Assembly: GCA_021157815.1 (NCBI GenBank)
Contig: JAGGVT010000120.1
Span: forward strand, 1-5,547
Direction: 5' to 3'
DNA: 5,547 nt
Origin: a bacterium
GTDB taxonomy: Bacteria; JAJVIF01; JAGGVT01
Shown here: positions 136-5,547 of the stretch, in pieces
Position numbering within the stretch: the first letter of the stretch is position 1
Layout: every line of letters starts with the position of its first letter
The notes under the pieces: model-generated
What the model was told of the DNA's origin: nothing
Databases searched by the model: none
What the model saw: the letters and a program-made list of their open reading frames with translations, nothing else
Program-made: the position numbers and the translations under genes

Positions 136-768
136 CTATGCAGGCTGGCGAAAAACTTCCTTGATTAGTTCATCTGTGAGGGAAATGTCGGGATTGCGTT
201 TGAGAGCTTTGTTTATCATGCGGAATGCTTCAGTGCGTTTGTAGCCGAGTTGTATCAGAGCTGCAACAGCATTACGTTTAAAATCAGGCATCCGGCTTTC
301 ATCCATGCTTGAATCAACCACATTGCCCTCGGGAAGGAATCCGGTCATTTTACCTTTTAGTTCAGCCACCATTTTTTCAGCGCTTCGTTTTCCGATTTCA
401 GGCAGCGATGACAGGAATTTAATATCGCCCGTTTCAATCGCGTTTGCGATTTGTTCCAGCGGTTCGACAAGCGACTTCACCGCGCGTTTTGCTCCGTAGT
501 CTTTTACCTTGATTATGCGCTCGAAGAATCTCTTTTCACTATCGTTGAGAAATCCAATAAGGCGTGGAGTCATTTTCCCGAATCCACCTGCGGATTCGAT
601 ATCGTAAATTGTGGAAAATGTAACTTCATCACCGATTTGAAATCTGTCTTTGACTGTTTTCATGATAATCGCCGGCAGGAGGATTTCATAGTAGATACCG
701 TTGACATCGACAATCACATGATAGTCGTCGGGGATTTCGTTTAATATGCCGCGAATTTTAGCTATCAT
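136..768 (-). CDS. ruvA: Holliday junction branch migration complex subunit RuvA
   Basis: RuvA binds four-way Holliday junctions as a tetramer and loads the RuvB motor during recombinational repair in the cytoplasm. The 210-residue product has the normal family length. Residues 1-64 form the OB-fold domain (MIAKIRGIL start, DVNGIYYEI at 21-29). RLIGF (69-73) leads into the two helix-hairpin-helix motifs. The second, LPEIGKRSAEKMVAELKGK (122-140), is canonical. The first (85-97) is degenerate: the usual GVGPK is DYGAK. Domain III, which contacts RuvB, is at about 160-205 (AVAALIQLGYKRTEAFRMI). The LPEIGKR form recalls planctomycete-type RuvA. The ATG at 768 matches the conserved family N-terminus. 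It has no Shine-Dalgarno, only an A-run. The gene follows ruvC on the same strand but is separated from it by 456 bp of repeats, and ruvB is not adjacent within the visible 135 bp. Confidence 0.95.
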   Translation of the reverse strand: MIAKIRGILNEIPDDYHVIVDVNGIYYEILLPAIIMKTVKDRFQIGDEVTFSTIYDIESAGGFGKMTPRLIGFLNDSEKRFFERIIKVKDYGAKRAVKSLVEPLEQIANAIETGDIKFLSSLPEIGKRSAEKMVAELKGKMTGFLPEGNVVDSSMDESRMPDFKRNAVAALIQLGYKRTEAFRMINKALKRNPDISLTDELIKEVFRQPA

Positions 769-1951: not shown

Positions 1952-2728
1952 TTAAAATGGCCTCACCAGTTCACGGAAACTTTTCGGGATGATTAACCTC
2001 CACGTTGGTTCAAGTTCACCCATGCCCTCCGGGATGTTGCGGTCGAGATAATATATTGTGTCACCCGCGATATTTTTTTTAAGCGATTCGAGTATATCGG
2101 GCGGCACATCCCATCTGTCGCGAAGAAAATCGAGAGTGAATCCGACTTTTGCCATGAGTGTCTTGTTGCCGATTTTCTCAAGATACTCCATCAGAAGAAG
2201 ATAGTTTAGAAAACCGAATGAACTCATCGTGCGATAGACACGAACCATTCCACCTGCCAGTTCGAATCTGCTTAAACAATCGAGAAAAGTACGTTCGAGG
2301 TCGCTGACATATACATCGAGATTATCCTTAAACGGGTGGGATTTATATCCGAAAAAGTGCACCGTGTGGACATTCTGAAACGTGCGCTGCTCGAATGTGA
2401 ATTTGCGGAATCTCTCGGGTGAGGTTATCACTATTCGATGAAGGGGAGTATCGACGAAGCCGTAAATGCGCAGCGCTGTGTAGTGGCTGAAAAAGTAAGG
2501 ATCAACGAGTCTGCTTCCAACCATCACCAGATCGGGTGAGTAGTCTTTATCTTGGAATTCAAATGGTATCACGCAGTACAGTCCGGCTTTGATTTGCTTG
2601 AGATATCCGTGCTGTTTCATGTAGTGGACAGCGTTACGAGCCTGCTGCTTGTCTGGAAAATGCCGTGACGCTTCTTCCAGCGAGAATACTCGTTGGTCAT
2701 AAAATGTCCTGTATAGTTTGGGAACCAC
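1952..2728 (-). CDS. AbiEi-family winged-helix antitoxin-like regulator, without AbiEii
   Basis: Likely a COG5340-type protein of the AbiEi family, the antitoxin and autoregulator of type IV AbiE systems. Its partner AbiEii is a nucleotidyltransferase toxin. The 258 residues begin with a winged helix-turn-helix (about 10-52: VFSLEEASRHFPD, then ARNAVHYMKQHGYLKQIKAGLYCVI). Next is the family segment YFFSHYTALRIYGF with HRIVITSPERF (about 78-110), then a helical region with SDLERTFLDCLSR. I start at GTG 2728 because GGAGGTGA lies seven bases upstream. The frame stays open to a TTG at 2782, but that TTG is part of the probable -35 box. No AbiEii gene lies downstream: a terminator, repeats and ruvC follow. 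It may be a solo regulator, or an antitoxin that has lost its toxin. The family call rests on recalled motifs. Confidence 0.75.
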   Translation of the reverse strand: MVPKLYRTFYDQRVFSLEEASRHFPDKQQARNAVHYMKQHGYLKQIKAGLYCVIPFEFQDKDYSPDLVMVGSRLVDPYFFSHYTALRIYGFVDTPLHRIVITSPERFRKFTFEQRTFQNVHTVHFFGYKSHPFKDNLDVYVSDLERTFLDCLSRFELAGGMVRVYRTMSSFGFLNYLLLMEYLEKIGNKTLMAKVGFTLDFLRDRWDVPPDILESLKKNIAGDTIYYLDRNIPEGMGELEPTWRLIIPKSFRELVRPF

Positions 2729-2732
2729 GAAA

Positions 2733-2740
2733 TCACCTCC
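2733..2740 (-). promoter_or_regulatory. Shine-Dalgarno deciding the GTG start of the abiEi gene
   Basis: GGAGGTGA on the minus strand, with seven bases between GGAGG and the GTG at 2728. This is the strongest ribosome binding site in the window. It contrasts with ruvA and ruvC, which have none. Confidence 0.85.
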
Positions 2741-2754
2741 GAATAATTCGTTAC

Positions 2755-2782
2755 ATTCTACACAATGATGCACGGAATTCAA
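2755..2782 (-). promoter_or_regulatory. Sigma70-like promoter of the abiEi gene
   Basis: TTGAAT (2782-2777) and TAGAAT (2760-2755) are separated by 16 bp and match the -35 and -10 consensus at four and five of six positions. The predicted transcript starts near 2748, giving a leader of about 20 bases that carries the Shine-Dalgarno. Confidence 0.6.
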
Positions 2783-2846: not shown

Positions 2847-3608
2847 TTAAACGAGGCAAGCTGGGTTGGCGAAATATATCAAGTTGCAATTAATATGAAT
2901 AATGCATATCAATCGCGCAATGGTTTGGTGTCGGACACCTTGATATGATTCAGGATCGGGTATTTCGGGTTGGGTTCCCGGTTGCGATGAAATATTCCCT
3001 TCAGGATTGGGAATCTGTGGAGAAGCATTTGGGATAAACTTATCGCCGAGATCAACTCCGGGGATATTCCTTAGAACGTCTGTTGGAACGGAATATGGCC
3101 CATGACTGTGTATGTTTGGAGGTCCCTGGGGGAAGACATCCTCCGGTGAGATTATTTCAGGTGTATGTTTTTTCTTGTACTCATCTGCCAGTTTAGTGGG
3201 GTCTGGCGGTTGAATGCAATATTTTGCGGTGAAACTGACAGGTTCACCCTCTTTGATTTCATCAAGATCGATTTCAGGTGGTGCTATCGGTTGCGGGTAA
3301 GTTGATTTCTGCTCAGTAGGATCAACCTCTTGTCCTGAATCTGTTGAAGATGCAGAATCCTTGATTGCCTCGTTGAAGGCATCATACGCGGCTTTTTCGG
3401 CGGCGCGTTCAAGAATCCGCTTCTCGCCAATTTGCGCTCTGACAACGTTTTCAGGTGCTTTCCCCTTGCGGAAACCCTTGATATCTGTGTTTTCCTTGAA
3501 CTCGTTGAGAATGTCAGGAATGTGCTTTTCAACCTCTTCCCACCCAAACTCAATTTTGAGTTCATGCTGTATTGGGTTGATTTCCTTATGTTTAACTTTT
3601 AAGTGCAA
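2847..3608 (-). CDS. Stand-alone trigger-factor N-terminal domain protein with Pro-rich tail
   Basis: The first 145 or so residues look like the ribosome-binding domain of trigger factor, which docks nascent-chain chaperones at ribosomal protein L23. The signature GFRKGKAP is at 45-52 (family pattern GFRxGxxP), inside ILNEFKENTDIKGFRKGK. It is followed by AAYDAFNEAIK, and by PIAPPEIDLDEI and VSFTAKYCIQPP (about 107-135). A Ser/Thr/Gln-rich insertion lies at 84-106. The PPIase and C-terminal chaperone domains are absent. Instead residues 150-222 are rich in Pro, Gly and Asn, and the last 30 or so read through a hairpin repeat. The only start codon in frame is TTG at 3608, with a poor ribosome site. 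It is either a reduced trigger factor or a degrading remnant. Confidence 0.65.
   Translation of the reverse strand: MHLKVKHKEINPIQHELKIEFGWEEVEKHIPDILNEFKENTDIKGFRKGKAPENVVRAQIGEKRILERAAEKAAYDAFNEAIKDSASSTDSGQEVDPTEQKSTYPQPIAPPEIDLDEIKEGEPVSFTAKYCIQPPDPTKLADEYKKKHTPEIISPEDVFPQGPPNIHSHGPYSVPTDVLRNIPGVDLGDKFIPNASPQIPNPEGNISSQPGTQPEIPDPESYQGVRHQTIARLICIIHINCNLIYFANPACLV
2905..2947. repeat. Compound hairpin at the 3' end of the trigger-factor-like frame
   Basis: CATATCAA (2905-2912) and TTGATATG (2940-2947) are perfect 8-bp inverted arms. Inside, GGTGTC (2927-2932) and GACACC (2934-2939) pair around one G. The inner stem abuts the right outer arm and leaves a 14-base bulge (2913-2926) on the left. 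It encodes part of the last 37 or so codons of the gene, which otherwise look non-coding. It may be a REP-like or transposon-end hairpin that replaced the original 3' end. Confidence 0.55.
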
Positions 3609-3681: not shown

Positions 3682-4230
3682 TTATTTAATTTTATCTTTC
3701 TTCCTTCTCTCATTAAGATAAGAATATATAATATCCGTATTCTCATGGTTTTTTCCATAATCGATATGTGAGAATGAATTAATCCTTAATGGCGCACTTG
3801 ATATTATAACCTCAACAAGATCGCTATTATGTTTTTCAAGTTTAATCTCTATCCTCTCACCGAGAGTTTTCCAACTTATATCTGTTCTAGCTAAAATCAA
3901 ACCATTCGCAACATCCTTCTTAAATACATAACAGTTGTTAATCTCATTAAGTGATTCTATACACAATCTGAGAACAACATCGAAACTGTCTTTCATGAGA
4001 ATATTTTTCTGTATCACCTGTGCATTATGATCTAAGGAATTATCTCTTGCGATTTTGAGGAGATAAAATTCCCAAAAAGGGATAATAATGCCTGGGATGT
4101 ATGTAATAAAAATGCAAATAAATACAAGTAAAAAATGATTAATCCGCAGGTTGTTAGTACTCAAGATCAAATAGATTAGCATATAATAAATTAAAAAAGC
4201 TGTTGAAGATCTTATTAAGTATAACTTCAT
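3682..4230 (-). CDS. Two-helix membrane protein, candidate immunity protein for the RHS toxin
   Basis: I do not recognise a named family. The 182 residues start with two hydrophobic helices (about 8-24, AFLIYYMLIYLILS, and 32-57, LLVFICIFITYIPGIIIPF). A soluble part of about 110 residues and a Lys/Arg-rich end (ERRKKDKIK) follow. The soluble part (75-175) alternates helix and strands around SWKTLGERIEIKL, VEVIISSAP and IDYGKNHENTDII. It resembles small alpha/beta domains with a conserved DYGKN ending that I recall from unannotated bacterial proteins. Both termini would face the cytoplasm if the basic end is inside. The ATG at 4230 has GAGG eight bases upstream. The gene lies 99 bp after the RHS stop on the same strand and is strikingly AT-rich. 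By position it could be the immunity partner of a membrane-acting RHS tip; no homology shows this. Confidence 0.6.
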   Translation of the reverse strand: MKLYLIRSSTAFLIYYMLIYLILSTNNLRINHFLLVFICIFITYIPGIIIPFWEFYLLKIARDNSLDHNAQVIQKNILMKDSFDVVLRLCIESLNEINNCYVFKKDVANGLILARTDISWKTLGERIEIKLEKHNSDLVEVIISSAPLRINSFSHIDYGKNHENTDIIYSYLNERRKKDKIK

Positions 4231-4238
4231 TTTTAATA

Positions 4239-4242
4239 CCTC
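4239..4242 (-). promoter_or_regulatory. Ribosome binding site of the membrane protein gene
   Basis: GAGG on the minus strand, eight bases before the ATG at 4230. It supports that start over later methionines. No convincing promoter is visible in the 99 bp after the RHS gene, so co-transcription with it is possible. Confidence 0.55.
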
Positions 4243-4329
4243 ATTAAATTTAAAAGAATGATCTCGATACGATTGTTTATTATTTCTTTATGAACAAACA
4301 GACAAATCAGCACAAATAATCTTACTATC

Positions 4330-5547
4330 TCAAATGGCTGCATAACTTTCAATACATGACCAATATGATAAAACTGCTTCATAGAGACAAACACTAAGAC
4401 AAGTAATGGCCATACCACCTCCAAAGAAACCAGCACCTCCTGCTATTCCAGGCAATATACCAATAATTCCACCACCAATAAATCCAGCAATTCCACCAAC
4501 TACGACACCGAAGATCGTGGCACCTATTATAAGAGGTTGACATCTGTTCCAACAATTCGTGAACTGCTCACAAGCTGGACATAAACAATTAAGGTATATA
4601 TTACATATATTGGATGTGCTAAGATACTTTTTAAGCATTGGAATGCCTCTATTACATGCTTCCGTTAAACCATATCCTGCTAAAGCGGCCAGAACACCAA
4701 TTCCAGCGGTAGTGCCAACACTGCTTGGAAGTCGACGTGGATTACCCGGTTTATACCAAGGTGGATACATATAGCCTGGTGCCTTAATGCTTAAAGGTAT
4801 TAATTCTATGTTATCCCATGGGTCACCCCCATCTCCCCATGGACCAATATTTGGTGGGCCAAAAACAGTGGAACCACCTGTCCCCCCAAGCATACTACCA
4901 CCACCCATTGCAGCAGGAGCATTCTCGCCGTCACCTGCCCAGCAACACTTACAGTCACAGTCACCTTCAGATGTATAATGGCAATGATTCCATAGGATAT
5001 CTACTCGACGCGAATCACCACAACACGCATCTGTCCAGGAAGGTTCATCATCCCATAAACAGCATAATTCAAAGCATGGGTCTGGTGAACTTTCACGATC
5101 TATGCATTCACTGGGATAATAAACAGCACATTGCCTTTCTTCACCCTCTTCAGTTCCACCTTCTCCATTACCTCCACCTCCAGAACCACCGCCAAGATTT
5201 CTGAATGGTGAGCGTGTGAGTCCTCCACCTCCACCATCAGTTCCGAAACCTCCACCAAAACTGCCTCCTTCAGCCGGCATAATATCCCAGCCTCCGGGCT
5301 GATAACCACTGGTGTCGGAAAGCTGCAATGGTCTGTTGTAAGCATAAATGTAGGGATTGACACTTAGTGGTGTCATCTTACTTGGTGCTCGTGCGATAGT
5401 GAACGGATCCTTTTGCAGGAATTGACCGAGCATTGGCGAGTAATGCCTAATCCCCATGCGATAGAAATATCCGCGCTCTTGATTCGCAACCGACGTATGA
5501 AACTCCTTATCCTCTAAAAACCCGCCGTGATACTGAATGTGATTCTC
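4330..5547 (-). CDS. RHS-core protein with Cys-rich, glycine-zipper C-terminal tip (5' partial)
   Basis: The frame is open to the right edge, so the visible 405 residues are only the C-terminal end of what is usually a very long secreted or delivered protein. The ATG at 5457 is internal. The RHS-associated core is at about 27-81: GYFYRMGIRHYSPMLGQFLQ with KDP, then NPYIYAYNRPLQLSDTSG. DTSG replaces the usual DPSG. In polymorphic toxins, the variable toxic tip begins after this point. Here it has a Gly-rich linker (83-139), a module with 12 Cys (140-202), a Gly/Pro-rich stretch, a hydrophobic segment (277-294), seven more Cys (298-336), and a hydrophobic region (339-387) with glycines at 347, 351, 355, 359, 363, 367 and 371. 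No nuclease or other enzyme motif is seen. A pore-forming tip is inferred. A two-helix membrane protein gene follows. Confidence 0.85.
   Translation of the reverse strand, partial: ENHIQYHGGFLEDKEFHTSVANQERGYFYRMGIRHYSPMLGQFLQKDPFTIARAPSKMTPLSVNPYIYAYNRPLQLSDTSGYQPGGWDIMPAEGGSFGGGFGTDGGGGGLTRSPFRNLGGGSGGGGNGEGGTEEGEERQCAVYYPSECIDRESSPDPCFELCCLWDDEPSWTDACCGDSRRVDILWNHCHYTSEGDCDCKCCWAGDGENAPAAMGGGSMLGGTGGSTVFGPPNIGPWGDGGDPWDNIELIPLSIKAPGYMYPPWYKPGNPRRLPSSVGTTAGIGVLAALAGYGLTEACNRGIPMLKKYLSTSNICNIYLNCLCPACEQFTNCWNRCQPLIIGATIFGVVVGGIAGFIGGGIIGILPGIAGGAGFFGGGMAITCLSVCLYEAVLSYWSCIESYAAI

Follow-up and report, generated by a model that had tools for sequence, protein, structure and literature searches.

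What does the C-terminus of a truncated RHS protein do, and is the small gene behind it an immunity gene? The locus lies on a contig of 5547 bp, which was analysed in its entirety and is called the window here. It comes from a draft genome of 3.2 Mb (91% complete, 221 contigs). The original prediction proposed a membrane-acting RHS toxin tip with a glycine zipper, paired with a membrane immunity protein. The following features were assigned, in minus-strand order:

5305-5547, minus strand: C-terminal end of the RHS core (TIGR03696, 41.8 bits, cut-off 32.5); the 5' part is missing at the contig end
4774-5301, minus strand: Gly-rich linker after the core and Cys-rich region of the tip (Cys count; homology to the related locus C14)
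4330-4773, minus strand: putative membrane-acting tip, a helical hydrophobic segment (hydropathy, predicted model) with seven Gly spaced by four at 4435-4509
3682-4230, minus strand: putative immunity gene, 182 aa, with two N-terminal membrane helices (helix prediction) and a soluble domain without recognised family
2847-3608, minus strand: isolated trigger-factor N-terminal (ribosome-binding) domain with a Pro-rich tail (PF05697, 1.6e-22); TTG start and 3' end uncertain
1952-2782, minus strand: gene of 258-276 aa
1225-1716, minus strand: ruvC
136-768, minus strand: ruvA

The gene at 1952-2782 resembles, by eye, AbiEi-type antitoxin regulators and has no Pfam match even at E 10. Nested inverted repeats with arms of 21-28 nt (86-95% complementary) occupy positions 880-1109. 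They are MITE-like, and one element apparently sits inserted within another. The ruvC segment is flanked by near-identical direct repeats of 18 nt (AAGAGCGTGTCG..., 802-819 and 1779-1796).

The RHS open frame spans positions 5547-4330 and encodes 405 aa, the N-terminus being lost at the contig end. Its identity as an RHS protein, first read from the letters alone, was confirmed by the RHS-associated core domain. Both Asp positions of what we take, from family knowledge and by eye, to be the core-end protease motif are retained (QKDPFTI, SDTSGY). A search for YD/RHS repeats (PF05593) gave no match in the remainder of the window assembly, and the window RHS gene itself is truncated N-terminally; the repeats are present in the sibling RHS protein of locus C45. 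Three other genomes of the same class were searched for the RHS core. Only a metagenome-assembled genome (MAG) from Lake Pavin sediment, G001, was positive, with four core matches, so that RHS loci occur in two genomes of the four-genome class sample. When the collection of genome contigs was scanned with the window RHS core end, the sole match was contig JAPKYR010000311.1 of that MAG (locus C14). Its RHS protein is the closest relative, with 49% identity over 109 aa of the core end.

The part behind the core comprises 323 aa with 22 Cys. The seven glycines were found in the predicted register and at the predicted coordinates, exactly four residues apart, at residues 347, 351, 355, 359, 363, 367 and 371 (window 4509-4435). 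Shuffling residues 331-375 (13 Gly in 45 residues) gave an equal or longer run in 0.055% of cases (p about 5e-4), and shuffling the whole frame did so in 0.08%. The long hydrophobic run around them is also real, as 19-residue hydropathy peaks at 2.39 (residues 339-357). The second hydrophobic segment is present at residues 273-298 but is weaker, with a hydropathy of about 1.3-1.4. The window tip consequently has the extended GxxxG run inside a hydrophobic segment by which glycine-zipper membrane toxins are recognised. A two-sequence AlphaFold model of the last 147 residues contains three long helices at only moderate confidence (mean pLDDT 67). Because Pro366 lies in the hydrophobic run and the model breaks near it, between helices 55-99 and 106-146 of the segment, the zipper stretch is predicted to form a hairpin rather than a single zipper helix. 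The post-core regions of the window and C14 proteins are homologous (Smith-Waterman score 121 vs 40 ± 6 for shuffled sequences). C14, the closest homologous tip, retains Gly at three of the seven zipper positions. The glycine zipper is hence a property of the window tip and not a trait of the whole system.

The putative immunity gene starts 99 bp past the RHS stop. Its two predicted helices (2-25 and 32-65; pLDDT about 75-83) were recovered, whereas the soluble part was modelled unreliably. The profile and structure searches proposed for both proteins were carried out, and neither could be assigned to a family or matched to a relative of solved structure (PDB sequence searches). For the tip, Pfam, NCBIfam and PADLOC were empty, and the fold search, run with a query model of moderate quality, gave nothing better than E 0.5. 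No enzymatic domain was recognised anywhere in the post-core region (Pfam, NCBIfam, PHROGs and PDB searches). Scanning the collection of genome contigs and the plasmids with the tip gave no matches. The 182-aa protein has no match in Pfam, NCBIfam or PADLOC and a single weak one in PHROGs, to a family without assigned function. No relative of it was found among 97 genomes except one spurious match, and the plasmids were likewise empty. Weak tip and immunity matches in the 97 genomes (L002-L004, L006) were discarded, as they overlap unrelated genes on either strand.

The comparison of related loci covers the RHS loci of two draft genomes, and three of the G001 loci (C159, C45 and C278) are recent siblings. 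Behind the core, all four G001 RHS proteins contain hydrophobic segments and 10-22 Cys. No more than about 40 bp past each of these RHS genes lies a small gene encoding at least two membrane helices, a different one at each locus. Together with the window, a hydrophobic tip is paired with the gene of a multi-helix membrane protein at five of five comparable loci. In C159, C45 and C278 the neighbours look, by eye, as if they combine two membrane helices with a PH-type soluble domain behind them; a bPH_5 match was obtained only for the C45 neighbour, and it is weak (4.2e-4, below the cut-off). The C14 neighbour is a short all-membrane protein. The claimed linkage of the small gene to the tip is therefore upheld in that a membrane gene follows every tip. 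It does not extend to individual families: the window and C14 tips are homologous but their immunity candidates are unrelated, so the pairing is not one-to-one by family.

In the three sibling loci the RHS core DNA is 91-93% identical, and the similarity stops at the core boundary. Throughout the tip and the gene for the membrane protein no similarity is detectable at the DNA level, and identity returns at 76-87% in the third gene. About 26% protein identity remains between the C159 and C278 tips. Because the core and the third gene are conserved and similarity is absent between them, the tip and the next gene are the unit that is exchanged, the pattern expected of toxin-immunity exchange. The joint variation that the original prediction had proposed to look for was thereby found, in the sibling loci rather than at the window locus. 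Replacement of tip and immunity gene at a conserved core is the signature of polymorphic toxin-immunity modules in the rhs orphan cassettes of Enterobacteriaceae (PMC3967940). In C278 the immunity gene and the third gene are separated by a displaced piece of RHS core, and C14 has an RHS-like fragment at the same place. RHS fragments fused to or preceding a trigger-factor domain gene, such as rhs rearrangement leaves, are also seen at L014:7890-8642 and L012:2638-3333.

This third gene had been overlooked, and the earlier picture of the locus was incomplete in that respect. The window copy matches profile positions 2-114 of 144 of PF05697 (Trigger_N). Its score against the NCBIfam tig model (60.7 bits) is below the cut-off of 180.2; Trigger_N is found alone, in place of the three-domain trigger-factor architecture. 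The short copies in general lose the match to Trigger_N beyond about position 113 of 144, which is as far as the isolated ribosome-binding domain reaches in solved structures. They retain GFRKGKAP-type ribosome-binding signatures, and a profile built from them matches solved trigger-factor N-domain structures. A single full-length trigger factor is encoded in each class genome, separate from the short copies. The latter occur only in the two RHS-bearing genomes, downstream of five of five RHS-immunity pairs (window 2847-3608, L021/L026, L012, L013, L014, L015), and none was found in class genomes without RHS. A sixth copy (C211) is intact, with 179 aa, has no RHS nearby and adjoins the gene of a tandem two-helix membrane protein. 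That protein (L026:8868-9962, 364 aa) consists of two successive two-helix units, and its gene is convergent with the intact trigger-factor N-domain gene. It is weakly similar to the C278 immunity candidate and is possibly an orphan immunity gene.

Linkage of short trigger-factor domains to RHS was also looked for in other phyla. In a survey of 385 genomes, more than one Trigger_N match was found in only 12. Short copies occur in four genomes of a second phylum (G166, G305, G385 and G390), and the genes (L043:1-1511, L042:1-605, L070:7184-7567, L072:5351-6169) all lie near contig ends. The G166 copy is preceded by the end of a Cys-rich protein, located at the contig edge, and by an overlapping gene for a lipoprotein-like product; the G390 copy has a collagen-like Pro/Gly repeat as its tail. 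The RHS core was not found in G166 or G305, and a search of the four genomes for RHS repeats gave one weak match, in G390. The linkage to RHS is thus shown for the class of the window only. A literature search retrieved no paper that describes a trigger-factor accessory of RHS proteins.

Taken together, a polymorphic RHS system with a membrane-depolarising tip and an adjacent membrane immunity protein, exchanged as a unit, is the probable explanation. The RHS shell would carry the variable C-terminal tip to its target. Once delivered, the tip would enter the cytoplasmic membrane of the target by its helical hydrophobic hairpin and dissipate the membrane potential. The adjacent integral membrane protein, placed in the producer's own membrane, may prevent the tip from inserting or oligomerising. 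The tip would be exchanged together with the immunity gene through recombination in their two conserved flanks, the RHS core on the upstream side and the trigger-factor N-domain gene on the downstream side, and the trigger-factor domain may aid production of the RHS protein or shield the hydrophobic tip. Several points weigh against this explanation. Neither the tip nor its neighbour has a homologue of known activity. The homologous window and C14 tips have unrelated neighbours, and the zipper periodicity is not conserved. The loci come from two genomes of one class, three of those in G001 are siblings, and the window gene is truncated. The idea of an analogous but different toxin-immunity system consequently gains from the co-variation of tip and neighbour and from the five membrane neighbours, and loses the zipper as a general feature and a one-to-one pairing.

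A hydrophobic tip could also serve translocation or anchoring instead of killing. The main rival is a translocation role by analogy with Tde1, whose N-terminal GxxxG zipper is required for membrane permeability and prey delivery and not for the DNase activity (PMC10240207). The hydrophobic Gly-rich segment would then be a device for bringing in another toxic activity, for instance of the Cys-rich part, and the neighbour would block entry or activity. About 180 further post-core residues are indeed available in the window protein, Cys-rich and homologous in C14. They contain no recognised enzymatic domain, however; the window segment lies C-terminal to the Cys-rich part, and membrane proteins as neighbours at all five loci fit a membrane target better. 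A translocation role is for these reasons considered unlikely. Rated slightly lower still is the proposal that the tip anchors a large structural RHS protein in the membrane or at the surface, with the neighbour as an assembly factor and no toxin involved. Hydrophobic, Cys-rich C-termini would suit retention at the cell surface, in a class with no detected T6SS sheath gene and a locus with no recognised toxin family. Conservation would be expected of such an anchor, yet tip and neighbour are replaced together between the conserved core and third gene (cf. PMC3967940).

The role of the trigger-factor domain is a separate matter. The chances are even that it contributes nothing to the system and is a passive recombination flank or a decaying passenger. 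Several G001 copies are damaged (C159 is frameshifted, C14 truncated to 75 aa and C45 fused to RHS sequence), and the window copy has no clear ATG start. A mere flank is harder to reconcile with its presence behind every RHS-immunity pair, in two RHS lineages and in no class genome without RHS, or with the retained ribosome-binding signatures. The intact copy beside a tandem membrane protein in C211 also speaks against it. Furthermore, the subgrouping of the copies tracks the RHS core, as the window and C14 copies cluster in the tree (support 0.98) like their cores. A more specific proposal, rather doubtful at present, is that this deep-branching class uses a trigger-factor-derived, ribosome-bound chaperone, dedicated to each toxin-immunity pair, which would shield the emerging hydrophobic tip at the ribosome. 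Equally tentative is the analogy of this role with the Eag chaperones or the zipper-binding ExiA/ExiB pair, which would here be taken by an unrelated protein. Should the domain prove functional, it would represent a new answer to the general problem of making a protein with a membrane-inserting end without self-poisoning. To our knowledge, few RHS tips are known to be membrane-acting. All five tips examined here, from two genomes of one poorly studied class, look membrane-directed and are paired with membrane proteins.

Among known systems, Tse5-Tsi5 of Pseudomonas aeruginosa is similar in that an RHS shell carries a pore-forming C-terminal fragment (PMC9637101, PMC10684867) and the adjacent immunity protein, Tsi5, has two predicted TM regions (PMC9637101); the roles in the window are putative. 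The window tip is longer (about 323 aa after the core, against 149 residues in Tse5-CT) and Cys-rich. No PDB sequence match or significant fold match to Tse5-CT was obtained with a tip model of moderate quality, and most of Tse5-CT is structurally unresolved (PMC10684867). Unlike Tse5-Tsi5, the window has a large soluble domain in its immunity candidate and a third, trigger-factor-type gene nearby. The T6SS sheath (PF05943) was absent from the four class genomes, of which the window genome is 91% complete in 221 contigs, while the E. coli control was positive. Delivery would accordingly differ from that of Tse5, a T6SS effector, and the analogy originally drawn with Tse5 holds for the mechanism and not for delivery.

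The LXG toxins EsxX and TelE of Firmicutes share with the window a long C-terminal glycine zipper, membrane immunity proteins (putative in the window) and perhaps the requirement for a partner that binds the zipper in the cytosol (PMC12744356, PMC10434224). The zipper of EsxX depolarises membranes and is countered on the outside by the membrane immunity pair ExiC/ExiD, while another pair binds the zipper within the cell (PMC12744356). These toxins differ in their LXG and T7SS context, in having DUF5085 cytosolic partners instead of trigger-factor domains and in lacking an RHS core. CDI ionophore toxins (PMC11630599) and Cdz bacteriocins, with the three-TM immunity protein CdzI (PMC5380434), are likewise polymorphic or zipper-bearing toxins that depolarise or lyse membranes and are met by integral-membrane immunity proteins. 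Their carriers are CdiA or type I secretion, and no homology to the window was detected. The third gene resembles trigger factor (tig) in its N-terminal ribosome-binding domain with the GFRxGxxP signature, and differs from it in lacking the PPIase and C-terminal chaperone domains, in its Pro-rich tail and in its link to RHS. Finally, the Rhs orphan cassettes of Enterobacteriaceae (PMC3967940) show the same exchange of tip and immunity gene past a conserved core, with displaced core fragments nearby, whereas in the class of the window the downstream flank is a conserved trigger-factor N-domain gene.
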